From a virus, in the IMG/VR virus record IMGVR_UViG_3300019093_001318, positions 1 through 41,764 of that record: DNA of 41,764 nucleotides; one strand, 5' to 3'. Below are positions 270-36,557 of the stretch, piece after piece (position 1 is the first letter of the stretch; every line of letters begins with the position of its first letter). The notes beneath the pieces are model-generated. The model did no database searches. It saw only the letters and a program-made list of their open reading frames with translations, and was not told where the DNA came from. Position numbers and translations under genes: made by a program.

Positions 270-902
270 TCAATTGAATCCAGACATGTAGAAAGTGATG
301 TTGCTGTTGTACTCTTCACCATTGGTCCAGCCATCTGCACTGCCTGGCAATTTGGTGATTGTTTGCGCACTCAGAGCAGGGTTAGCAATTTTTTGCACAA
401 TCAACAGACCCTCCGCATCTCGCCTTGACCAGATATGATTGGCTCCCACCACCCGCAAAACAACACGCGCATAGCTTATGGAACCATTTGCTTTGTATGT
501 TATCCTGTCACCTTGCAGTGCTGCATCTGCATCAAATTGTGTTACTCTCCATGTTTGCAATGCATCACCAATGCTAGCACCACTGGTTTGTATGTATGTT
601 GTGAAGTTCCATGGTGGTGTTTGATAACCTGCAGGCATTGTTGTGGGTGTCACAGCAGGTGTTTTAGTAGGTGTCGGAGTGGGTGTATTGGGTGTCAGTG
701 TGATAGTTGGTGTGATAGTTGGTGTGGGTGTCAGTGTCTGAGTGGGTGTGCATGTGTTGGAAGGCGTCACAGAAGGTGTCTGACTAGGAGCAGGCACCAC
801 ACTCTGTGCATGCACACTGCCTATGACATTTTTAACAGAGAATCTGTCTGTGGCCACTCTCTGCAGTCTTTGCTGATCTTGGAAATTAGGCACCTGAGGC
901 AT
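270..902 (-). CDS. Virion-surface protein with shared N-terminal anchor and Thr-Pro linker
   Basis: The protein has 210 residues. Residues 1-25 (MPQVPNFQDQQRLQRVATDR...) match the N-termini of the proteins starting at 3127 and 7002 and, more loosely, 9221. A Thr/Pro-rich linker follows (about residues 40-90), then a ~115-residue C-terminal domain that I do not recognise, probably beta-rich. I chose the ATG at 902 rather than one nine codons upstream because it aligns with the paralogues and lies 5 nt downstream of a late-promoter motif. By analogy with its paralogues I infer that the N-terminus docks on the virion and the C-terminal domain is displayed. Function unknown; it could also be a fibre or fibritin-like protein. 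Confidence 0.7.
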   Translation of the reverse strand: MPQVPNFQDQQRLQRVATDRFSVKNVIGSVHAQSVVPAPSQTPSVTPSNTCTPTQTLTPTPTITPTITLTPNTPTPTPTKTPAVTPTTMPAGYQTPPWNFTTYIQTSGASIGDALQTWRVTQFDADAALQGDRITYKANGSISYARVVLRVVGANHIWSRRDAEGLLIVQKIANPALSAQTITKLPGSADGWTNGEEYNSNITFYMSGFN

Positions 903-2122: not shown

Positions 2123-3127
2123 TTACAGCCCTGCGTTGAACTGTGAGGTGTAATTGGTATAGGTTTGAGAGGCAGGATTGTATCTCTCAAAACTTGTAGT
2201 ATCTATGTAAGCTTTGAAGCCATCATCCACATTGATGAATGTGCCCACACTCACAAACACATCTCTGGAATTGTCACCACCAAACAGTGCACTGTAAGCT
2301 GCAGGCAGAATGTTGCTCTTGAATGCAGCAGCTGCAGCATCTCTGGTGGCATCTGTGGCCATCTTCATTCTCACACCATAACCCAGAGGATTGGGGTCAC
2401 TTGCATCATCTTCATATTCATCATAGTTGCTGATGAGAGCATCTCTCACATCTCCACCTGCAGCGTCATACAGATTCTTGGTCAATGTGTACTGTTGAAA
2501 GTCAAATTCACCAAAAGGAAATGCACCAGGGAATGTGGGTTCTGCACCACCAGTAGCCACATACTGTTGTGCCACATTGAGTGCACCACATGTGGCAGAT
2601 CTGGATGCTTGACCCTGTCTCATCATGAACCCCACTTGCCCATCAGCTGTGATGCCAATGTGCGGTTGAATGTAATAGAACAGAGCACCGGTGTCTGTGA
2701 TGTGTGAAGACCATGCAAAAGTGCCCACTATACCAGTAAAGGGATACCCACCAATGCCACCTGCAAAGAATGGACCAGAGAATTGTTGCAATGATTCTGG
2801 ATATTGTCCAAAAGTATTGCCAGGAAAGATGGAAGCATTTTTATCATCTGAACATATGCAAGCAGCAGTGACCACATTGCTGGGTGCATATGCACACAGT
2901 GTTTGAATGAAAGTTGCACATCGGTTACCAAATCTTTCTGCCAGTACAGCATTTGGATATGTTAGTTGTACTGTAGTTGTATATGCTGGTTGAATGGGTT
3001 GAGCTGCAGTAGTTGCGCGTATGACTGCTTGAGGTGAAGATTGTTTTGTGAAGTTACTTATTGACAGTCTGTCACTGGCCAGTCTTTGTGCTCTCTGCAA
3101 GTCAGTAGTATTAGGAACACTGGGCAT
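2123..3127 (-). CDS. Virion-anchored LCIB-type carbonic-anhydrase-like protein
   Basis: A 334-residue protein with two parts. Residues 1-25 (MPSVPNTTDLQRAQRLASDR...) are the anchor shared with three nearby proteins. From about residue 50 it resembles the LCIB/LCIC family (theta/LCIB-type carbonic anhydrases, beta-CA-like fold): CICSDD (C92, D94), GGIGGYPFTG (123-132), SSH (H142), PHIGITADG (155-163), RPGQ-like RQGQ (170-173) and CGAL (C180). The Cys-His-Cys set C92/H142/C180 and an Asp beside the first Cys fit the known zinc site. The likely reaction is CO2 hydration, though several LCIB members are inactive alone. The anchor suggests display on the particle. A late promoter sits 5 nt before the start. 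Family call fairly firm; activity inferred. Confidence 0.7.
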   Translation of the reverse strand: MPSVPNTTDLQRAQRLASDRLSISNFTKQSSPQAVIRATTAAQPIQPAYTTTVQLTYPNAVLAERFGNRCATFIQTLCAYAPSNVVTAACICSDDKNASIFPGNTFGQYPESLQQFSGPFFAGGIGGYPFTGIVGTFAWSSHITDTGALFYYIQPHIGITADGQVGFMMRQGQASRSATCGALNVAQQYVATGGAEPTFPGAFPFGEFDFQQYTLTKNLYDAAGGDVRDALISNYDEYEDDASDPNPLGYGVRMKMATDATRDAAAAAFKSNILPAAYSALFGGDNSRDVFVSVGTFINVDDGFKAYIDTTSFERYNPASQTYTNYTSQFNAGL

Positions 3128-3132
3128 TCAAT

Positions 3133-3140
3133 TATTTATT
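3133..3140 (-). promoter_or_regulatory. Late promoter AATAAATA, 5 nt before the start at 3127
   Basis: Minus strand reads AATAAATA-ATTGA-ATG. Same geometry as the other late genes; no Shine-Dalgarno sequence fits in the gap. Confidence 0.65.
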
Positions 3141-3153
3141 GTGCTGTATTATG

Positions 3154-3187
3154 TTTTTTTTAAAAAATTGTTTTTTTTAAAAAATTA
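3154..3187. repeat. 17-bp AT tandem repeat between two minus-strand genes
   Basis: Two adjacent copies of T8-A6-TT-(G/A) lie at 3154-3170 and 3171-3187, overlapping the stop codon of the protease gene. The T8/A6 halves are self-complementary. On the minus strand this lies just after the protease and before the LCIB-like gene, so it could end transcription or be a slippage product. Confidence 0.45.
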
Positions 3188-4462
3188 CCATCTGCCTAGC
3201 TGATGATATCTTCTGCCTGACAAAGTGATGATGGCACTGGTGGAATACGGCAAATATTCACCTGCAGATAAGACTATGGTGTCAGTTGTTGCAGACAGAA
3301 CAGGCACTATGCCATTCCATGCAACCACATCCAAATCTTGTGACACAGCTGAAATTCTGCTTCCTATGCCATAGCTTGGACTGAAACTGGGCCCAGCGAA
3401 CACCAGTCCTATGCACTTCCATGTGGAAAGAGCAGGCATGCTGGCACTCAACAAAGCATATATTGCAGATCCAGAATCTCCACCTCTGGTGGCAATGGTA
3501 GTGCCTTCTATGACAAAGCTCTGAGAGAAATATGATACATACCCTGTGTATGATCCCACTGCTTCTATGCCAAATTCTGATACACTCAATGCACATGAAT
3601 AACTGTTTCCTGGGGCTCCTATGGGACCACATGTTCTTCCAGATCTGAAAACTGGAGCTCTGTAATTGGGAGAAACAGGATCCAACAAAGAAGTGATTTC
3701 ATTATCAGATGCAAATTTGAATGGACCAGGTGCATTCAAACCTATGGCACTCACACTGGCACTGGAAATTAAACTCTTGTCTATGCCCACTATGGCAGCA
3801 TCCACCGTGGTGTCTCTTATCCATCCAGAACCATCAGTTGTATAATCTTTGTTGCCTATCAGAACACTTCTCTTGCAATTGCCTATGTAATCAACAGCAG
3901 GGGTGACACTGCCATAAGGGTTATAAGCATTGGTACCTGGTTGTCTGGCACTTAGCGCTAAAACATTTTTGCCTGTGATTTCATTGCCCCCTGCATAATA
4001 ACCATGCAATTGACTGGCAGCAAACACATGACAATTGGACAAAGCCACCACTTGACCATCTTTTTTATCCACAACCATGATGCCCAGAGTTGCATCAGAA
4101 CTTCCAATGTTGATGCTGCTGCACCCTCCCATGAGAGGTCTTCTTTTGATGTAATTGCTCTTCACAGGTTCAACAGAGCTGCTCAAGTTGTGGCAATCTG
4201 CTATCAATTTTTCTGATATGGGAGCTTCTTCAACGTCTGTTTGAAATACAGTGTGGTTGTAGGTTATGGTTGCAGGTACAATTTCATGTGCTTCAAGCTC
4301 AGACAAAGATTTTTTTGTTTCAAAATAAAACTTAATGCATTTCTCTCCAGTGTTTATCCCATTAACAGTCTTATCTGCATAGTAGATGCCTGTTAGTCCT
4401 TTGTATGGAAGAGAGCTCATGTCTATGGATCTCAAATATTCTACTGCTTCATATGGGTTCAT
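3185..4462 (-). CDS. Chymotrypsin-fold (trypsin-like) serine protease
   Basis: A 425-residue protein with a recognisable triad: His145 in ALSNCHVFA, Asp221 in [11 protein letters not shown] and Ser330 in TRGGDSGSA. Order and spacing fit the chymotrypsin fold; the LSNCHV and GGDSGS contexts resemble bacterial and phage relatives of trypsin. About 110 N-terminal residues precede the protease domain and may be a prodomain or docking part. I chose the ATG at 4462 because it forms an ATGA overlap with the stop of the upstream RCC1/cupredoxin gene, implying coupled translation and a shared role. No signal peptide is visible. It may be a virion protease that matures the displayed proteins or cuts host surface proteins; substrate unknown. 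Confidence 0.75.
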
Positions 4463-7002
4463 AAATTGTAATCCTTTATACTTATTACCCCGCTCATGCT
4501 TGGGTGTATTGCACATTGATAATAAATTGTGTTGGGTGTTCCACTATTAGGAGTGAACATCACCCTGCCTGATGCAATGCCAGATGTCACATCATTGTTG
4601 TAGGTTCCTGAGACAGGTGAAGATGTGTTTCCTGTTGATACTCTGAGAGCAAAAGGATGTGAGGGAGTTAACACTATGAAATCATAATTGGTGCCTCTGA
4701 AACATGTCAGAGAAGGGTTACCTGTGCCAATTTGACTGATATTGTAAGACATTCCTGCATTTGTTATTTCGAAAGGTATGTAACTGCTGCTGTACACCAG
4801 AGCAGGAGCAGGGGGTGGTGTGGGGGTAGGTGTTGCAGTGGGTGTTCTGGTGGGTGTTATGGATGGTGTAGGTGTAGGTGGAGCGTTAATAGTGAGCGTT
4901 GGTGTTACAGAGGGTGTGGGGGTATTTGTAGGTGTTGTTGTAGGTGTTGGAGAAGGAAAAGCAAGAATTCCACCTAATGCTGCACTGTGGCCTTGTTTGG
5001 CTCCTCCATTATCAAATGCCCCGCCTTTTGAAGATATTGTTGACCATTTGCCTCCCAGCAGGTACAAATATCTTCCATTGGTGCTAATACCGAGTTGCCC
5101 ATCATCATTATTACCTGCACAGCCTGTAGCTTCCTCAGCTGAGCTATATGCAAATATAGTTTCATTTCCACAGACCACATCTGTCCAGACAAAAGATAGA
5201 GTATTGCCTTCTCCGTCTATATAAACTGTAGGAGAAATTTCTGCAAAATTATACTCAAAGGTGCTCGGGCTATTGGTGCCTAGTTGACCGGAGGTATTGC
5301 TCCCAACAGAGTACCATTTACCATCGGTAGATAATCCGGCAGTATGATTATACCCAGCAGACATTTTGATAAAGTCAGCAGTTAGTGGAGTGAATTTGTT
5401 TACTGATGGCTGATAAGACCCAAACCCACCAAGACCTAGCTCATAGTTTTGATTGTAGCCACATGCAAACCATTTAGTGCGTGTATTTGCAGATAGTGCC
5501 AATACATGTCGAAAACCTGGAACAACATCATCCCAGTCCCCGGAGACCGGTTCAAAGAAACTAAAGCTGTTATTGTTACCATATCCACATTGACCCCATG
5601 TATTATCCCCTACGCTGAACATTTTTGTACCAGATAGTGCGTATGTTGTCTGATCTGACGCGACAATTTTTCTGTAATTACCTGGTAAAGGTGTCAAGCC
5701 ACCAACGGTATTTGAAGAGAAAGCAGGGCTAGGACTCCCACCAAGTTGCCCACGATTATTTCGACCACAAGCAAACCACTTAGTTGTAGTGCCAGCAGAA
5801 AGAGCAAAGAAATGGTCACCTACACCAGTAGATATATCGCTCCATGATCCTGTCAAAGGAATTAAAGTACTGCTACTAACTGGTGTGCAGTATGTACCTA
5901 ATTGACAATAATTATTGGTACCAACAGAGAATAGCGTATTTCCAGAGAGAGCATATGTATGTTTACCAGCTGTAACTATTTTTGTAAAATTACCACTTGC
6001 TAGTCTAGTAAAATATTGTTGATTTATTGTATTACCTAGCCCCAATTGACCGAGGTTATTATTTCCTGTGCTCCATAGATAGAGAGGCCCTATATTTGTT
6101 GGAGTAACAGTAGGTGTAGGTGTAATAGTGGGTGTTTGTGTATTAGTAGGTGTAGTAGTTGCTGTTGGTGTAATAGTGGGTGTAATAGTGGGTGTTACGG
6201 TTCTTGTAGGTGTCTGCGTTGGTGTTAACGAAGGAGTAACTGTATTTGTCGGTGTAGGTGTTACTGTTCTTGTAGGTGTCTGCGTTGGTGTTAACGAAGG
6301 AGTAACTGTATTTGTCGGTGTAGGTGTTACTGTTTTTGTAGGTGTTGTTGTAGGTGATGCACCAGGAGTTTGTGTTATTGAAGGTGTGGGTGTTACTGTT
6401 TTTGTAGGTGTTGTTGTAGGTGATGCACCAGGAGTTTGTGTTATTGAAGGTGTGGGTGTTACTGTTTTTGTAGGTGTTGTTGTAGGTGTTGGAGAGGGTG
6501 AAGGGTAACTAGTAATTGGCGGTACATACACATTGCTTGCTGCAAAACCGATAATAAGAGAGCCAGTATTTGTGTAATAAATTGTATACAGGTTTCCTAA
6601 ATTGCTTGAAATGGTGGCGTTCTCAGTTATAAAGATTTCTTGGTTGTTAGCTGACAGCCCACTGCCATAATTAAAAATCAGACTACAATTAGCAAAATCA
6701 TTGACATCAAAATTATTTGTAAAACCAAGCACCTGTGAATCAAAAGCTGCACTAAATGTATCCACTGTTGTTGTTACAATAAAATAATTAGGTACTTCAG
6801 GATCTGTAATGGTTATAACTGCATTGTTATCAACTACATAATTATAAACAAATGGATTTGTAGGTGTAGGGGTAGGAGTGGGCAGTATTGATGCCGCTTG
6901 CCCGTTTACAGAGAATTGATTAACCGCTTTTGCAAAAGAAAGCCAATCGCTGGCTTGCCTTTGTGCCCTCTGCAAGTCGTTAAAATTAGGAACATTAGGC
7001 AT
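4459..7002 (-). CDS. Modular virion protein: anchor, Thr-Pro linkers, RCC1 propeller, cupredoxin
   Basis: An 847-residue protein. Residues 1-25 ([20 protein letters not shown]...) are the shared anchor; a small domain (~50-165) and a long Thr/Pro linker (~165-304) encoded by a 66-bp tandem repeat follow. Residues ~306-676 hold RCC1-type repeats (W.xGxNxxGQLGxG, for example [17 protein letters not shown]), enough for a seven-bladed beta-propeller. A second Thr/Pro linker (~680-732) leads to a C-terminal ~113-residue cupredoxin-like domain with HPFAL and [12 protein letters not shown], giving a candidate type-1 copper set His, Cys, His, Met with amicyanin-like C-x2-H-x2-M spacing. It ends in an ATGA overlap with the protease gene. 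The linkers suggest extended display. Role inferred: binding or redox at the particle surface. Confidence 0.75.
6193..6490. repeat. 66-bp tandem repeat encoding Thr-Pro linker
   Basis: Units begin at 6193, 6259, 6325, 6391 and 6457 (each at TGTTAC), in constant 66-bp register. The first two resemble each other most, as do the last three. Each unit encodes 22 residues of the T-P-T-x type. The array lies inside the coding frame of the 4459-7002 gene and can change length without frame loss. Confidence 0.8.
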
Positions 7003-7013
7003 ATTATAAAATA

Positions 7014-7021
7014 TATTTATT
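7014..7021 (-). promoter_or_regulatory. Late promoter AATAAATA, 11 nt before the start at 7002
   Basis: Minus strand reads AATAAATA, then 11 nt, then ATG. The spacing is longer than the usual 5-7 nt. A second -10-like TATAAT directly abuts the ATG. Confidence 0.5.
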
Positions 7022-7038
7022 TCTCAAATACATACTTT

Positions 7039-7071
7039 TTATAGAGATTCTACTGCTTCATATGCATTCAT
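7039..7071 (-). pseudogene. Ten-codon relic of the protease gene start
   Basis: Right after the 7068-9221 gene, in the same ATGA overlap, the minus strand encodes [10 protein letters not shown] followed by TAA. The intact protease begins [12 protein letters not shown] in the same position after the other cupredoxin gene. The relic is best explained by a duplication that copied the cupredoxin end plus the protease start, followed by loss of the protease body. Confidence 0.65.
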
Positions 7072-9221
7072 AAATTGTAATCCTTTATGCTTATGGTTCC
7101 TATCATGCCTGCATGTATGACACATTGATAATAAATTGTGTCTGGAGTTGCACTATTAGGAGTGAACATCACCCTGCCTGATGCAATGCCAGATGCCACA
7201 TCATTGTTGTAAGCACCATCAACAGATGAAGAGGTGTTGCCATTGGATACTCTCAAGGCAAAAGGGTGTGATGGTGTTAACACTATGAAATCATAATTGG
7301 TGCCTCTGAAACATGTCAGAGAGGGATTGCCTGTGCCTATTTGACTGACATTATAAGATAGCCCCACATTTGTTATTTCCAGAGGAATGTAACTGCTACT
7401 ATACACCAGAGCAGGAGGTGTAGCCAGAGTTGGTGTAGGTGTAGGTGTGGGCGTTTTTGTAGGTGTTCTGGTAGGTGTTATGGATGGTGTTATAGTAATT
7501 GTGGGTGTCACAGAAGGTGTCATGGAAGGTGTGCATGTGCTGGTCGGTGTAACAGAGATTGTGGGTGTCACAGTGGGGGTAGGTGTGGGTGATAATCCAG
7601 GAGTGAGTGTAACTGTGGGGGTCATTGAAATGGTGGGGGTAACAGAAGGAGTCGGTGTTGGTGTTGCAACAGTACTTGTGGGAGTGGGGGTGGGTGTGGC
7701 TGCACATGCACCAGGGCTGACATTCAATGCAAAAAGAGCTGATGTATCACCTGTTCTGTAAAGACCAGACAGAGGGGGCAAGTATTTATTGAATCCATTT
7801 TGTCCATCACCCTCCCAGTTTTGATAACCCGTGAGTGAATGGTACAGCAATAATCCTGCTACATTAGAAGACAGCACCCAAGTCTGTGAAGAGTAATTGT
7901 ACACAAGAAATGGATTGACGTCACCTGATCTGGTTCTTGTGTATCTATAAACATTTTCTGCATTGCCGCCAGCAATGCCTGTTCCTGCAGTAATGAGCCT
8001 GGTGTATGTGCCATTAAAAATACTGTTAGGATCAGCAGCTGATATGCATACAGAATTATAATACACACCAGGCTCTATGTATGCATCTTGTATGTAACCT
8101 AAAACATTTGCATAACGTCCTGATGGTGCAACATATACGTTATCAGATGCACTTAAAGCCCAGTATGTGAAGCTTGGTTCCTCTCCACTGGCTGCTACGA
8201 TAAACCTATTTGCAAAAAGTGTCTGATGGCAAAACGTGTTGTTTCCGCGTGCATTAGTCATCCTGTAAATAGGTCCAGATACAAAATTTGTGAAAACATA
8301 GGTACCATCCAGCCACCCATATGTATAAGGTATACCATTTGCAAAATCATATGTGCCTGCTATTCTGTATGATGCAGGAAATACAGGTGATGCAGTAGGG
8401 GTTACAGTGGGGGTTGCAGTGGGTGAAGGTGAAGGTGTGAGTGTGATAGTTGGTGTAATAGATGGGGTAGGAGTACATGTTTTGGTTGGTGTTAAGGAAA
8501 TGGTTGGCGTGGGTGAGGGTGTTGGAGTCCTAGTGGGGGTAGGTGTTGGACAGCCCACACCATAATTGTATATTAATACACCTGGAGCAGGTGCAAAATT
8601 ATCATCTATATCAAGCCAAATATTGCTCAAAGGAGGTATATAGTTATTCATACCTGCATATGCAACAAAGTATGCAGTACCAAAGAACCCACCAGTAAAA
8701 AATACCCAGACCTCGTTGGGCTCTTCATAGAAAATTCTTTTGGAGCTATCAGCTGAGTTTACATAACCATAAGGCTTGTTATTTGCATCTCCTGTGTAAA
8801 AGCCATCAAAACCAAGATCAGGCCGATAAAGATCAGCACCACTCAGCATAAAACATGATTGCCATGGAGCAGGTGTAGGTGTGTTGGTGGGCGTGGGTGT
8901 AGGTGTCTGAGAAGGTGTGGGTGTTTGAGAGGGTGTTATGGAAGGTGTTATGGTGATTGTGGGTGTCACAGAAGGTGTCACAGATGGTGTTACTGTAGGT
9001 GTAGGCGCAGGTGTTTCAGAAGGCGTCGGAGTATTTGTAGATGTGGGTGTTGGTGTTGGAGTTACAGGTGTTTCTGTTGGAGTAGGGGTGTAGATTACTA
9101 TAGGTGCTGCAATTCTATTTGGATTTTGCTGATACAGTGTGTTGCCTATCCTTGTTAGATTATCCACTGCTGCTCTTTGTCTTCGCAGTAAATCTTTGTA
9201 ATCTTGATAGTATACCGGCAT
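7068..9221 (-). CDS. Modular virion protein with Thr-Pro linkers and C-terminal cupredoxin
   Basis: A 717-residue protein. The N-terminus ([22 protein letters not shown]) is a diverged form of the shared anchor. Three Thr/Pro linkers (~40-114, ~220-277, ~507-600) separate two regions of unrecognised, probably beta-rich sequence that share short motifs ([11 protein letters not shown] and [25 protein letters not shown]). The last ~115 residues are a cupredoxin-like domain nearly identical to that of the 4459-7002 protein, with HPFAL and [12 protein letters not shown] keeping the His, Cys, His, Met ligand set. A late promoter lies 6 nt upstream and a protease-start relic follows. I infer a display or fibre protein. 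Copper binding is predicted from motif only. Confidence 0.7.
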
Positions 9222-9227
9222 GTATAG

Positions 9228-9235
9228 TATTTATG
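9228..9235 (-). promoter_or_regulatory. Late promoter CATAAATA, 6 nt before the start at 9221
   Basis: Minus strand reads CATAAATA-CTATAC-ATG, with no room for a ribosome binding site. Confidence 0.65.
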
Positions 9236-9267
9236 TCTTCATATAACACTATGTATTAAGTGAGATA

Positions 9268-9723
9268 TTGATCCTAAGAAGACATACATTAACTATTGAT
9301 GTGATAATCACTGCTGTTAATGTTGCTCCGTTTACCATTTTGCATGGGATCAGAAAATCTGACATTTTCAAACATCAGCTGCTGGCAAGATTTCCTTCGC
9401 TTGCTGCAGACGTACATAGCTTCTATGGCAATCCAAACTGTTCCTGTAAGAACAACATCATAAAGACTGTTCGCGAGAATTATGATAACTTTAAGCATTT
9501 CATAGAAGAGTTTGTTGTGCAGAACCCTTCCATAGACATAACAGACATACCCAACATGGGTGCCATACCTGATGCACCCAAGATGATTGCTGGTGAGACT
9601 TACACCATTCATAAGGATGAATTAAAAACATTTTATTCAAATTTTCTTGTCAAAGAGAGGTGTGCCTACAAGTCATGCACCATTGTGCCTGAAGGTGACA
9701 ATTTGAGGCTTTATTTCCTATGA
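9268..9723 (+). CDS. Hypothetical protein
   Basis: A 151-residue protein that I do not recognise. It has one Cys-rich patch (GNPNCSCKNNI) and a second pair (RCAYKSC) that might bind a metal. The start is uncertain: TTG at 9268 is preceded by a promoter-like TTAAGTG at the usual 6-nt distance, while a GTG (residue 12, in IDVIITAV) is also possible. It overlaps the next gene by ATGA, so the two are probably expressed together. Confidence 0.55.
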   Translation: MILRRHTLTIDVIITAVNVAPFTILHGIRKSDIFKHQLLARFPSLAADVHSFYGNPNCSCKNNIIKTVRENYDNFKHFIEEFVVQNPSIDITDIPNMGAIPDAPKMIAGETYTIHKDELKTFYSNFLVKERCAYKSCTIVPEGDNLRLYFL

Positions 9724-10016
9724 TTGATGATGTAGCAGTATTTCTTTTAATGTCTCTCTCTCTGTCTCAAATGTTCAGCTTTTCAGAAGTATTTCTTCCA
9801 ATTAGAAATTTTATTGTAAAAATACCATACATAAGAAAGCCTCTGCTTTGTCCAGAATGTTGTAGCTTCTGGATGGGAATATTAACATCTGCCATGTTCA
9901 ACCCTTTCTTTGATATGTTTGATGCATACCATATTCTGTCAACTTTATTCTGCGGACTTGTCACTCATTTGGCAGCATGCTATCTGTACAAGATATACTT
10001 CAAGCTGCACACATAA
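9720..10016 (+). CDS. Small membrane protein, DUF1360-like
   Basis: A 98-residue protein with hydrophobic segments at about 6-30, 48-62 and 72-90. The motif LLCPECCSFWMG resembles the C-x2-C-x-FW-x-G signature of DUF1360-type membrane proteins found in phages and bacteria. It starts in an ATGA overlap with the preceding gene. Probably an inner-membrane protein; role unknown. Confidence 0.6.
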   Translation: MIDDVAVFLLMSLSLSQMFSFSEVFLPIRNFIVKIPYIRKPLLCPECCSFWMGILTSAMFNPFFDMFDAYHILSTLFCGLVTHLAACYLYKIYFKLHT

Positions 10017-12160: not shown

Positions 12161-12355
12161 TTATTTCTTAATCTTCCTGCTGTTTCTAACTTCTGAAATT
12201 TTCTTGCGCTCTGCCTTGCAGATATCTGCAATTGCTTTCAATCCTTTGCGAAGTCTTGAGGAAGCAGCATTCTGTTTCTTGTCGAAGAACTTTTCAAAGT
12301 CTGTCTGTAATGTTTGGGCCGAGTTAACTATTTGTTCAATGAAGTTATTTTCCAT
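12161..12355 (-). CDS. Small basic protein, histone H1/Hc1-like
   Basis: A 64-residue protein rich in Lys and Arg, starting MENNFIEQIVNSAQTLQTDF. The pattern SAQTLQTDFEKFFDKKQNAASSRLRKGLKAI resembles bacterial and chlamydial H1-like Hc1 proteins, which bind and compact DNA. I preferred the ATG at 12355 over one 11 codons upstream because the latter adds a hydrophobic stretch foreign to the family. It could act on host nucleoid or phage DNA. Confidence 0.5.
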   Translation of the reverse strand: MENNFIEQIVNSAQTLQTDFEKFFDKKQNAASSRLRKGLKAIADICKAERKKISEVRNSRKIKK

Positions 12356-12399
12356 ATATCTATATACTATAATAATAAAAAAAATCAACTCAAATAAAG

Positions 12400-12407
12400 A
12401 TTAAATA
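12400..12407 (+). promoter_or_regulatory. Late promoter ATTAAATA, 5 nt before the start at 12413
   Basis: Plus strand reads ATTAAATA-ATTAC-ATG. It lies in the divergent gap with the H1-like gene. Confidence 0.6.
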
Positions 12408-12412
12408 ATTAC

Positions 12413-12574
12413 ATGAGTGAAGAACGGAAGAAAATCACTGCTGACTTTGTGCTTGATCTATACAATCAAGCCAAGAAGAACAAAGGACTGAAGAAAGAAG
12501 AACTCATGAAAAAGGTGATCTTCTTCTCACAGCATCTGAATGAACGTCTTAACTTGAAGAAGATTTCTGCTTAA
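12413..12574 (+). CDS. Small charged hypothetical protein
   Basis: A 53-residue protein, MSEERKKITADFVLDLYNQA to ...LNLKKISA, mostly helical and rich in Lys/Glu. A promoter at the standard distance supports it. It overlaps the convergent zinc-ribbon gene by 4 nt at its stop codon. No family recognised; a small DNA-, RNA- or protein-binding factor is possible. Confidence 0.55.
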   Translation: MSEERKKITADFVLDLYNQAKKNKGLKKEELMKKVIFFSQHLNERLNLKKISA

Positions 12575-12786
12575 TTTGATATTTCTCTCTCTATCTCTTC
12601 TGCAATTTTTATTATATTCTTCTTTGATTTTGTGAACCGGTATGCTCCACATGTTGGGCAGATATGTTCCTCTCTAAGAACAATTGTGTCACAGCTCTCA
12701 CATGCTTTAAAGGCTTCTGGGTTCTCTATTACACGCTTAATTATCCTCAGCCTGGCTGATTCAAACCTTGAGCTCTTGCTACCCAT
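12571..12786 (-). CDS. Small zinc-ribbon protein
   Basis: A 71-residue protein with two CxxC pairs, C29/C32 (ACESCDT) and C43/C46 (HICPTCGAYRF), spaced as in a zinc ribbon. A basic N-terminus (RFESARLRIIKRVIENPEA) precedes it. The layout matches short zinc-ribbon proteins that I associate with Verrucomicrobiota-like genomes; that is from memory and not tested. A late promoter lies 6 nt upstream. It could bind nucleic acid or the ribosome. Confidence 0.6.
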   Translation of the reverse strand: MGSKSSRFESARLRIIKRVIENPEAFKACESCDTIVLREEHICPTCGAYRFTKSKKNIIKIAEEIEREISN

Positions 12787-12792
12787 TTTAAT

Positions 12793-12800
12793 TATTTAGT
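12793..12800 (-). promoter_or_regulatory. Late promoter ACTAAATA, 6 nt before the start at 12786
   Basis: Minus strand reads ACTAAATA-ATTAAA-ATG. Confidence 0.6.
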
Positions 12801-12827
12801 TGTTTTTTCAACAACAAACGTTGATTT

Positions 12828-12833
12828 TATAAT
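12828..12833 (+). promoter_or_regulatory. Possible sigma70 -10 TATAAT for the gene at 12855
   Basis: TATAAT lies 21 nt before the ATG, with a weak TTTTCA at -35 distance (17-bp spacer). If used, it gives a short leader instead of a leaderless transcript. Confidence 0.4.
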
Positions 12834-12854
12834 CATTGTATTTACCATTATTCA

Positions 12855-13292
12855 ATGGAAAAGAATATTGTTTCTTGGCGCACTGTGACATCATTGTGCT
12901 CCAAGCTAGTGGAACGGCTCAAGGACAATTATCCCAATATCAATGATTACAACATCATAGGATTGAGCAGAGGTGGGCTTGTGCCAAGTGTCATGGTGAG
13001 CAATATGCTCAATATACGCAAGGTGCATTCTTTGGGAATTAAATCTTATGATAATGAACAACAGGGTGCACCTGAATTATATCAAGTACCCAATCTGAGC
13101 ATGCTGAGCAAGATATTGGTTATAGATGATATATCTGATACAGGTGATAGCTTCATAAATACAAAAGATATGTTGGAAGGCAAGGATGTAATCACAGCTT
13201 CTCTTTTTATTAAAAACAATACAAAATATAAGCCTGATGTATACATTAAGAGTGTTGATACAGCAGTATGGGTTGTATTTCCCTGGGAGTAA
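12855..13292 (+). CDS. Phosphoribosyltransferase
   Basis: A 145-residue type I phosphoribosyltransferase. The PRPP-binding loop ILVIDDISDTGDS spans residues 87-99 and the pyrophosphate loop SRGGLVP residues 38-44. Size and motifs are closest to hypoxanthine/xanthine-type enzymes (Gpt/Hpt), which make IMP, XMP or GMP from a free base and PRPP. The base specificity cannot be read. With GMP reductase, the formyltransferase and QueF elsewhere in the window, a purine-salvage or modified-purine role fits. Its stop codon forms part of the next gene's promoter. Confidence 0.8.
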   Translation: MEKNIVSWRTVTSLCSKLVERLKDNYPNINDYNIIGLSRGGLVPSVMVSNMLNIRKVHSLGIKSYDNEQQGAPELYQVPNLSMLSKILVIDDISDTGDSFINTKDMLEGKDVITASLFIKNNTKYKPDVYIKSVDTAVWVVFPWE

Positions 13293-13295
13293 ATA
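13288..13295 (+). promoter_or_regulatory. Late promoter AGTAAATA, 5 nt before the start at 13301
   Basis: Plus strand reads AGTAAATA-ATTGT-ATG. The TAA is also the stop codon of the phosphoribosyltransferase gene. Confidence 0.55.
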
Positions 13296-13300
13296 ATTGT

Positions 13301-13801
13301 ATGAGAGAAAAGTTTGAAAAGGCTATGAAGTTTGTAAGAGTAGCTGAAGGTGATTATTTTAACCACCCTAATGATCCAGGTGGTGAGACCATGTATGGTA
13401 TTACCAAGAGAGATTATCCAGATTTAGATATTAAAAATCTCTCACGTGAAAAAGCCGATGATATCTTTTTTGAAGATTACTGGTCTTTGTGTTCTGCAGA
13501 AAAACTTCCAGAACCGGTATACATCTCCTATTTCGACTCTGTTGTTAATACAGGTCGTAAGCAAGCTAATAGATTTCTTCAGCGCGCCTTGGGTGTAGTA
13601 GCAGACGGTATTGTGGGTCCAGTAACTTTAGAGTCAGTTGAAAAGGCAGATGCTAAGGAATTAGCGGCTAAAATTGTTGATCAGCGTCAGACTTTTTACG
13701 AAAACTTGTCTATAAATAAACCTAAATTGAAAGTATTTCTAAAGGGTTGGACCAACAGGAACACCAATCTTAAACACTTCATTACCAACACTGCTGCATA
13801 A
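13301..13801 (+). CDS. GH108-type N-acetylmuramidase (endolysin)
   Basis: A 166-residue protein. Residues 10-36 hold the family signature with catalytic Glu16 in VAEGDYFNHPNDPGGETMYG, followed by GITKRDYP. The middle has SVVNTGRKQANRFLQRALG, and the C-terminal half (VVADGIVGPVTLESV) is the peptidoglycan-binding part usual in GH108 proteins. It cuts the glycan strand of peptidoglycan. No signal peptide, so it would need a holin to reach the wall; a holin-like gene is at 11886. The ATG at 13301 was chosen for the promoter spacing and family alignment. Confidence 0.85.
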   Translation: MREKFEKAMKFVRVAEGDYFNHPNDPGGETMYGITKRDYPDLDIKNLSREKADDIFFEDYWSLCSAEKLPEPVYISYFDSVVNTGRKQANRFLQRALGVVADGIVGPVTLESVEKADAKELAAKIVDQRQTFYENLSINKPKLKVFLKGWTNRNTNLKHFITNTAA

Positions 13802-13851
13802 AGCTGTTGATGTTAATTGATGTTCCTGTACAATTGATTAAATATTACATA

Positions 13852-13865
13852 AGAGCAATTGCTCT
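13852..13865. repeat. 14-bp perfect palindrome AGAGCAATTGCTCT
   Basis: It lies in the 108-bp gap before the 3D-domain gene. A second small inverted repeat (ACTGT-AATA-ACAGT) follows about 20 bp on. They may be an operator or a weak terminator of the GH108 gene. Confidence 0.4.
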
Positions 13866-13909
13866 CTCTACTGTGACCGGTAGACACTGTAATAACAGTA
13901 CCCAAATAT

Positions 13910-14467
13910 ATGAACAAAATAAAAATACTAAAACTAATGGCACTATGTATCCTAGTCTGTGTAACACCATGTTGCATAACATCTTATACAGAAAAGCAGT
14001 TTGAGATTAAGGATCTCAAAGCAGAGCTCAAGGCAATGGCTGTGACACAGGAGAGAGAAGCAGCCAAGCGGATTACTGTGAAGAATGAGGGTATTAACTA
14101 TCGCGGTATTCTTATTCCTGAAACAAATAGCAAATCTTTAAAAATTCTTACAGTACGACTGACAGTGTACTGGGCTCGAGGCGGTTCAACTGATGCTGAT
14201 AGCAGTAAACTTCGTAGTTCAACAGGGTACACGCTCAAGCAAGGTGACTCCATTGCAGTGGACCCACGCATCATACCTTATAACAAGGAAGTTATTATTC
14301 CCAATGTGGGGTTGGTCAGAGCTGTGGATACTGGCAGTGCAGTGAGAGCACGCACAGCATCCAGCGGGAAGCTGCCAGTTGTCGATGTGTTTTTTGTTAA
14401 TAAGAAAGATGCTGAATATTTTGCTAATAATAATCCAAAAATAGTAAAAATTGCTGTACTCAATTAA
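13910..14467 (+). CDS. Exported 3D-domain protein (cell-wall hydrolase type)
   Basis: A 185-residue protein with a hydrophobic signal (about 8-22, LMALCILVCVTPCC; possibly a lipoprotein via one of the Cys). A coiled region (about 28-55) precedes a 3D (Asp-Asp-Asp) domain: SIAVDPRIIPYNKEVIIPNVG, then VRAVDTGSAVRAR, then VVDVFF, giving the three conserved Asp of the double-psi barrel related to MltA and RlpA. These domains are linked to peptidoglycan glycan cleavage. It sits between two muramidase genes and probably helps lysis from the periplasm. Confidence 0.75.
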   Translation: MNKIKILKLMALCILVCVTPCCITSYTEKQFEIKDLKAELKAMAVTQEREAAKRITVKNEGINYRGILIPETNSKSLKILTVRLTVYWARGGSTDADSSKLRSSTGYTLKQGDSIAVDPRIIPYNKEVIIPNVGLVRAVDTGSAVRARTASSGKLPVVDVFFVNKKDAEYFANNNPKIVKIAVLN

Positions 14468-15253: not shown

Positions 15254-16450
15254 TTAAGGTGTTAATACTACACTTATGCCATCCCCTGCAATTATTGATT
15301 CAGTGAGAAGATTGGCTTTTGTTATCTTATACAGCGCACCAGCACGAGCTATGAGAAACTGATCTGTGTCTTGTGTTGCACCACCAGGTATTTGTCCTGT
15401 GATGGCATCAACGTTCATCTTTGCACCCATGATGGAGTTGTTGGTTATGGCAGCTCCTGGCAATGTATTTGCCACAATTCCTGCCCCTGATCCATTAAAA
15501 GTATTGGCTGTTATGTTGTTACCATAAATGCTGTCTCTGGCACTAATGGTATTGCTCACTGTCATAGCACCTGTGACACTAAGAGTGGGGTGTATGGTTG
15601 TGTTTGCAAAAAATGATAAATTATTATTAACTGGATTGCCCACAGGTGCACCAGGAACTACTTTAAAGAAATTGGTATCCAGAAAAAAAGTTGTTTGGTT
15701 GTTCAGATTGTTATTGACAATGCCGTTGCTTGATGCCAAGCCGAGAGTGGGTAGTATTGTAGAGAATTGATAAGATGATAATTTTGATGTGCCACATCTG
15801 CCAATAAATTCATTTGGACCAACTTCTATGACTTGTGGGTAGTAGAAGCTGTTTAATGTATTAAGATAGAGACTCTGGGGTGGTATGAATTTGAAGTTGG
15901 TGTTCTCGACACCTGCCACAGTTGAGCCTGGCGAAATCTCTATTGGATCAAATGGTGACATCTTGGTCAGGGTGATGCCATCAACTACATTAGAATTCAA
16001 TTTGTTTCTCCATACACCTTCATCTTGGAGATTGAGAGTCAGATTATCATAATAAAATTCTGTTGGGTTAATAACAACATAACTATCATATTTTACAAAA
16101 TCTGAAGATAATGGCGGGAAAACATTGTAACCTGTCAAAGCATAGATGGTTTTTGTAGCTCTGTCATATATGATATCCCCTGCTTCTGCGCTCTTACTAA
16201 CAAGGATATTGTATGCTACTTGTGTGAATCCTGTAGTCAGATAGGTACCAAAAAGCTGATCCACAGGGCCTAGGTTGCGTGTACCCACCGGGAGACCACC
16301 TATTGTCTGGCCATCGCCTATGTAAAGCCTCTTGGTATCAACAACATATGCAGGCTCTCCTATGTTAAATTGAATACCTGTTGTGTTTGCAGTTCTTCTT
16401 TGATTGTCTGTGCCGCGTCGGACTACGATTTTTGTAATATTTTCAGCCAT
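15254..16450 (-). CDS. Fibre-like structural protein
   Basis: A 398-residue protein. The N-terminus (VVRRGTDNQR...TGIQFNIGEPAYVVDTKRLYIGDG, about residues 8-47) matches the repeat found at the start of many phage fibre and tropism-determinant proteins. The remainder is rich in Asn, Thr and Ser with NNNLNNQTT and ITANTFNGSGAGI segments typical of beta-structured fibres. No tail-spike enzyme or chaperone domain is visible. It probably forms part of a tail fibre or whisker. The late promoter is 14 nt upstream, with GGATAACC in between. Confidence 0.65.
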   Translation of the reverse strand: MAENITKIVVRRGTDNQRRTANTTGIQFNIGEPAYVVDTKRLYIGDGQTIGGLPVGTRNLGPVDQLFGTYLTTGFTQVAYNILVSKSAEAGDIIYDRATKTIYALTGYNVFPPLSSDFVKYDSYVVINPTEFYYDNLTLNLQDEGVWRNKLNSNVVDGITLTKMSPFDPIEISPGSTVAGVENTNFKFIPPQSLYLNTLNSFYYPQVIEVGPNEFIGRCGTSKLSSYQFSTILPTLGLASSNGIVNNNLNNQTTFFLDTNFFKVVPGAPVGNPVNNNLSFFANTTIHPTLSVTGAMTVSNTISARDSIYGNNITANTFNGSGAGIVANTLPGAAITNNSIMGAKMNVDAITGQIPGGATQDTDQFLIARAGALYKITKANLLTESIIAGDGISVVLTP

Positions 16451-29252: not shown

Positions 29253-29771
29253 TTAGCCGTTGAGACTCCAGAGTCTCTGAAAATCACCAACAGTGCGGAA
29301 GTTTACTGCATTTGATCCAATGGATGTGTTTGTGCCAGTTGATTTGTATGGCACATCAATTTGATTAATGTAACCAGCCACAGGGAGCACTGCATTGGTT
29401 CTGTTAGCTGAAACACTGATTGTGGTATTGAACAAAGGAACATTAAATCCAACAACAAGAACTGCAGCACTGGCACCTGGATAATATACACTGCCACTCT
29501 GCAATGACCCATAAGCCACATTTGAACCACCAGCATAAGGAATAGTCAGTACCAAAGTAGTTGCGTTAGCAGTCAATGTGCTGCCAGCAGCACCTGTAAC
29601 ACTGTAACTAAAGGTCCCACTAAAAGCAAAATTGCTGCCAGACAATGCACCATCAAAGCTTGGGTCAATTTGACCAGAGACAGTGATTGTGCCAGTGAAT
29701 GCTGAATTGGCAAGATTGTATGTGCTAGTGTTAATAGCATTGGAAGAGAGTGTAGATGTTAGTAGGGCCAT
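29253..29771 (-). CDS. Small beta-rich putative virion protein
   Basis: A 172-residue protein rich in Ser, Thr, Gly and Asn, with alternating hydrophobic pattern (TGTITVSGQIDPSFDGALSG, TLVLTIPYAGGSN). It begins with a late promoter 5 nt upstream and lies directly after the gp23 terminator, convergent to and abutting queF. Probably a minor capsid or decoration protein by context; no family recognised. Confidence 0.55.
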   Translation of the reverse strand: MALLTSTLSSNAINTSTYNLANSAFTGTITVSGQIDPSFDGALSGSNFAFSGTFSYSVTGAAGSTLTANATTLVLTIPYAGGSNVAYGSLQSGSVYYPGASAAVLVVGFNVPLFNTTISVSANRTNAVLPVAGYINQIDVPYKSTGTNTSIGSNAVNFRTVGDFQRLWSLNG

Positions 29772-33191: not shown

Positions 33192-33199
33192 TATTTATT
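33192..33199 (-). promoter_or_regulatory. Late promoter AATAAATA, 5 nt before the start at 33186
   Basis: Minus strand reads AATAAATA-TTTCT-ATG. Confidence 0.65.
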
Positions 33200-34752: not shown

Positions 34753-34760
34753 TATTTATA
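34753..34760 (-). promoter_or_regulatory. Late promoter TATAAATA (perfect), 6 nt before the start at 34746
   Basis: Minus strand reads TATAAATA-ATATTA-ATG, an exact T4 late -10 match. Confidence 0.75.
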
Positions 34761-36549: not shown

Positions 36550-36557
36550 TATTTATG
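36550..36557 (-). promoter_or_regulatory. Late promoter CATAAATA, 7 nt before the start at 36542
   Basis: Minus strand reads CATAAATA-AGACTAT-ATG. Confidence 0.6.

Follow-up and report, generated by a model that had tools for sequence, protein, structure and literature searches.

Phage members of the LCIB carbonic-anhydrase family whose domain layout suggests a place in the virus particle

A protein of an uncultured T4-like phage, encoded in IMG/VR virus record IMGVR_UViG_3300019093_001318 and analysed here over the 41,764 nucleotides of that record (the window), carries an LCIB domain and, as judged by comparison with its relatives, belongs to a real phage lineage within the LCIB family of carbonic anhydrases, one that is widespread, is unreported in the sources searched and has a domain layout suggesting a place in the particle. 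The reading we prefer, with a probability of roughly 0.5 (0.52), is that of a late-expressed, particle-associated phage protein with an LCIB-type zinc beta-carbonic anhydrase domain. The gene and its main parts are as follows.

2123..3127, minus strand: LCIB-domain protein of 334 aa, with ATG and stop; PF18599 E=2e-24; dN/dS 0.14-0.20 versus its two nearest relatives
3026..3127, minus strand: N-terminal module a, residues 1-34; profile match, low model confidence, one short predicted helix
2126..2992, minus strand: LCIB-type beta-carbonic-anhydrase domain, residues 46-334, from the AlphaFold model; Z 26.6 to PtLCIB4
3133..3139, minus strand: late-promoter motif ATAAATA, 5 nt before the LCIB start codon

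The open reading frame has exactly the bounds, length and ATG start given for it in an earlier, sequence-only reading, and the motifs CSDD (residues 92-95), GGYPFTG, PHIGI (155-159) and CGAL (180-183) are all present in the order described there. The homology to LCIB proteins proposed from these motifs is far beyond chance: the Pfam family LCIB_C_CA (PF18599) covers residues 79-222 at 86.5 bits (cut-off 25), and a PDB search with the window protein returned 6kfs (E=8.6e-16) and PtLCIB4 (E=6e-11), with all significant matches being LCIB-family chains (6kfs, 9vzj/9w05, PtLCIB4, LCIB and LCIC). A profile built from eight phage relatives scored better (6kfs, E=4e-20; PtLCIB4, E=3e-16). The AlphaFold model, for which the input was 73 window- and locus-derived sequences, had pLDDT values mostly >90 from residue 51 onward but low over the first 45 residues, with weaker stretches at residues 91-110 (pLDDT ~59, containing C92-D95) and 121-130 (pLDDT 67). 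Structure prediction against LCIB and PtLCIB had been suggested as a check, and a match was found, the model superposing on PtLCIB4 (5b5y) over 240/241 residues at 2.3 A; structure-match ranks 1-6 were all LCIB-family entries, and classical beta-carbonic anhydrases came next at Z ~11. The LCIB fold and family membership of the window protein are established. Chance similarity to LCIB is ruled out by the E-values, the fold and the active-site conservation, and a degenerate remnant by purifying selection and the intact residues.

The candidate active-site residues lie at the following positions.

2843..2854, minus strand: C92-S93-D94-D95, probable zinc cysteine and catalytic aspartate, aligned with PtLCIB4 C46-S47-D48; C92, D94 and D95 invariant in 73 sequences
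2702..2704, minus strand: H142, aligned with PtLCIB4 H88; invariant
2660..2662, minus strand: H156, probable zinc histidine from beta-CA topology; invariant, after a central strand on the model
2588..2590, minus strand: C180, probable zinc cysteine; invariant, starting helix 181-191 on the model

Residues C92, D94, D95, H142, H156, R170, C180, Q211, N299 and D301 did not vary among the 48 distinct phage homologues and the 25 bacterial ones compared, despite a mean column identity across the alignment of only 31%, and the Cys, Asp, His, His, Arg, Cys order of the LCIB family active site was found in all of these sequences. In beta-carbonic anhydrases, zinc is held by a Cys that follows the first strand, a His that follows a central strand and a Cys at which the next helix starts. 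Read onto the AlphaFold model, this topology favours C92, H156 and C180 as the zinc ligands. The C92/H142/C180 triad originally proposed thus holds in that all three residues are conserved across the 73 sequences, but the zinc ligand is probably H156 rather than H142, which would instead occupy a catalytic position. The column assignment is consistent with the mutant chains of PtLCIB4, as S47R and H88A deviate exactly at the S93 and H142 columns. Besides the zinc motif, His162 and Arg194 of CrLCIB (His161 and Arg193 of CrLCIC) have been described as important in a structure review (PMC5876011), and the PDB alignment ranges for both proteins are consistent with His162/His161 corresponding to H142 and Arg194/Arg193 to R170.

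Two scans of viral contigs in IMG/VR recovered about 60 loci with an LCIB domain. Pairwise dN/dS was 0.12-0.20 in five comparisons, and the LCIB sequences are under strong purifying selection. None of the 50,697 INPHARED phage records contained an LCIB-domain match with three family members as queries, and no cultured phage with the gene was found there; the window protein had no match in PHROGs and the LCIB domain none in BFVD. Literature searches turned up viral carbonic anhydrases, either of another kind or with the kind left unstated, and no account of LCIB in phages. A scan of bacterial genomes gave 80 loci, nearly all in Bacteroidota, encoding proteins (L077-L156) that were mostly 247-256 aa long with no N-terminal module and no evident signal peptide. 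Standalone proteins of ~248 aa with the full active site are widespread in this phylum, mostly in heterotrophs, and a literature search found no study of their function. In a maximum-likelihood tree confined to phage sequences and bacterial ones picked by similarity to the query, with bootstrap values not quite settled, the two groups fell apart with full support.

In phages, the LCIB domain sits behind at least six unrelated N-terminal types.

Module a (MPxVPNxxDLxRxxR): window, L023-L026, L038, L053
Module b (SxGxxPxSNDFxNLID): L003, L007-L009, L018, L027-L037
Module c (AFVRYxxxGxIVPGSLxL): L046-L052, L054-L074
Modules d and e: first genes of adjacent LCIB pairs, L039-L042 (d) and L043-L045 (e), the second genes being bare
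Module f (MSTLKTNNIEPVSGN): L075, cut by the contig end

Within the window, the module-a profile matched at 3026-3127, 6901-7002 and 801-902 and weakly at 9120-9200, bearing out the suggestion that the N-terminal part is common to neighbouring proteins: the first ~30 residues also occur on 270-902(-), 4459-7002(-) and, weakly, 7068-9221(-). Two related contigs, of 157 and 129 kb, likewise have four copies each near the LCIB gene (one match marginal). Three of the modules (a, c and f) are also found on virion-type proteins encoded next to the LCIB gene, with module c on nearby proteins of which some have BspA-type LRR or Fib_succ_major domains and module f on nearby ORFs, while module b was seen solely on LCIB proteins and, when modelled alone, was uninformative (pLDDT 49). 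Neither module b nor module c had a significant match among annotated phage proteins in INPHARED. Groups a and b fall into the same well-supported clade (100/98) despite unrelated N-termini, so modules have been swapped within the phage lineage; over the whole tree, eight labels, counting that of the bacteria, require seven changes. Tandem pairs in which a module-bearing LCIB gene comes first and a bare one second, both with a full active site, occur at L039:9788-11826, L040:8892-10942, L041:8922-10963, L042:8869-10930, L043:9605-11729, L044:9602-11668 and L045:5323-7389.

The genes around the LCIB gene in the window include the following.

270..902, minus strand: short module-a protein with Pro/Thr-rich repeats
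3185..4516, minus strand: protease-like protein; phrog_20754 'protease' E=3e-12, GGDSGSA motif
4459..7002, minus strand: module-a protein with RCC1 propeller, Pro/Thr linkers and fibre-connector-like C-terminus
7068..9221, minus strand: fibre-like protein with weak module a and the same C-terminus as the 4459..7002 protein
15254-16450, minus strand: probable tropism-type fibre gene; Mtd_N at 25.4 bits, just under the Pfam cut-off of 26.3; late-promoter motif

The module-a neighbours have a C-terminal domain in common with cyanophage fibre-like or baseplate proteins. The protease-like protein is kept beside the LCIB gene in L025, which encodes a similar protein at 8688-9965, and in L038 a subtilase (12161-14119) lies in the cluster corresponding to the window protease-like gene. 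Two overlapping plus-strand genes (929-1471 and 1468-2106, the first with a glycine-zipper match) face the LCIB gene in the window, and L038 encodes a protein like the product of the second ahead of its LCIB gene (9017-9661).

One alternative is that the LCIB fold serves on the particle as a binding module for receptor recognition or decoration, with a structural zinc and no relevant catalysis. Proteins with the same N-terminal modules bear RCC1, BspA-type LRR and Fib_succ_major, binding-like domains, and the alternative is credible to that extent, but it is unlikely overall given that D94, H142 and R170, which lie beyond the metal ligands, are invariant in 48/48 phage sequences and that selection on the LCIB sequences is strongly purifying, while receptor-binding domains are typically fast-changing. 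The strict conservation of the whole active site argues for catalysis over receptor-binding reuse, without proving it. Catalysis by the phage protein is likely, since residues other than the metal ligands are just as strictly kept and its best structural match, PtLCIB4, is reported to be constitutively active (PMC9614477). In favour of the binding role, CrLCIB and CrLCIC retain the beta-CA zinc site, yet show no in vitro activity (PMC5876011), so an intact site need not mean activity.

Expression with the structural genes is supported by the promoter motif. As the sequence-only reading had noted, a late-promoter motif precedes the LCIB gene, and ATAAATA stands 5-14 nt ahead of 10 window gene starts, compared with a mean of 0.10 and a maximum of 2 at random positions in 5000 draws. 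The motif as such is not over-represented in the window (16 found versus 13.4 expected by shuffling). The ten genes are the LCIB gene, three other module-a type genes, the Mtd_N fibre-type gene, 29253-29771 and those for the prohead protease, head-tail adaptor, portal and sheath stabiliser, while no start-proximal motif was found at the window RNR, GTP cyclohydrolase, endolysin and major capsid genes. Sites in the window include 3133-3139, 7014-7020, 9228-9234, 33192-33198, 34753-34759 and 36550-36556, mostly 5-7 nt from the start; were this a T4-type late promoter, the transcripts would have little or no leader. In many other contigs, ATAAATA lies 2-7 nt before the LCIB gene.

The promoter pattern also bears on the possibility of a late intracellular enzyme that adjusts bicarbonate or pH for biosynthesis outside the particle, its N-terminal modules having some other purpose. 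Such a role would fit the short, unanchored bacterial homologues without an evident signal peptide, the presence of RNR and GTP cyclohydrolase genes in the window phage and the second copies of the d and e pairs (d2, e2), which lack any N-terminal module. It is nonetheless distinctly unlikely, as the late-promoter motif is on the LCIB gene but not on the window metabolic genes, and six N-terminal fusions common with fibre-like neighbours would be unexpected for a soluble enzyme. Association of the LCIB protein with the particle is likely because the domain repeatedly stands behind modules of fibre-like neighbours, has a promoter motif in common with structural genes and is encoded in structural clusters.

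The position of the gene varies among the relatives. In L029 there are 15 nt between the portal gene and the start of the LCIB gene; in G006 and G007 the LCIB gene follows a major-capsid match by ~0.2 kb, and in L075 it follows the capsid gene by ~1.6 kb. A protein carried inside the head, which would enter with the DNA and work in the host cytoplasm as infection begins, would suit the several T4-like relatives with the gene right behind a portal or major capsid gene, and the short genes near the LCIB genes of L029 and L041 whose N-termini are possible capsid-targeting sequences (L029:11497-13353, L041:7589-8888 and L041:11322-12162, starting LIFEAY or MKxFKEFF-like), but is improbable since window module a is carried by large Pro/Thr-linked fibre-like proteins, unlikely head contents, and inspection of the sequence after module a revealed no obvious prohead-protease site.

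A T4-type major capsid protein was found in the window and seven other records, and had no match in the six module-c contigs tested or in G010, a fragment; as the module-c contigs show, the LCIB domain is not confined to a single type of phage. The L075 capsid protein is 60% identical to those of Flavobacterium phages, and that of the window is ~33% identical to its best matches, from cyanophages. A cyanophage CO2-concentrating gene is not supported, with no psbA in 14 related, possibly incomplete, contigs.

In the reading that we prefer, a particle-associated carbonic anhydrase, we infer that the protein is part of the virion, binds zinc and turns over its substrate, and we infer its purpose along the following lines. 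The short N-terminal module would dock the protein to the virion, and the C-terminal LCIB domain would convert CO2 to bicarbonate and back, a reaction in which a proton is released or taken up. Its action would most simply take place at or near the host cell surface, in adsorption or entry, where it may serve to change pH or carbonate chemistry locally. That a widespread phage lineage carries a working LCIB carbonic anhydrase in its particles, re-anchored by module exchange and altering carbonate chemistry or pH at the host surface, is a more tentative proposition, which we place a little short of even odds. If true, it would represent a new class of virion enzyme, acting on a dissolved gas and not on a surface polymer, and a new setting for a family little studied outside algae. 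The 48 diverged but strictly conserved phage sequences are a natural set of variants from which to learn which features an LCIB protein needs for activity. It would also show that a 'metabolic' domain can be a structural passenger, a warning against calling auxiliary metabolic genes on the strength of domain hits only.

Among known systems, PtLCIB4 of Phaeodactylum tricornutum shares with the window protein the fold, the C-S-D and His positions, the invariant Arg and the second Cys, but is an algal protein with 22% identity and no phage N-terminal module. The Bacteroidota proteins (e.g. from Flavobacterium and Pedobacter) are homologous to the C-terminal end and identical at the active-site positions checked in 25/25 sequences, although they are bare, ~30% identical and on their own side of the tree. 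Chlamydomonas LCIB (5k5w) and LCIC (5b5x) have the same fold (Z 22 and 21), but are only 17-18% identical and are pyrenoid CO2-concentrating proteins with no measured activity alone. The two form a heteromer, which the tandem genes of L039-L045 recall, and these anchored-plus-bare pairs suggest dimers in which one subunit would carry the anchor. Phage fibre enzymes such as capsule depolymerases and deacetylases act on surface polymers, unlike the activity proposed here, and the literature searched contained no CO2/bicarbonate enzyme in their place; the phage LCIB proteins nevertheless resemble them in having an enzymatic domain behind an N-terminal anchor that is exchanged between phages (PMC9569702, PMC6872550).
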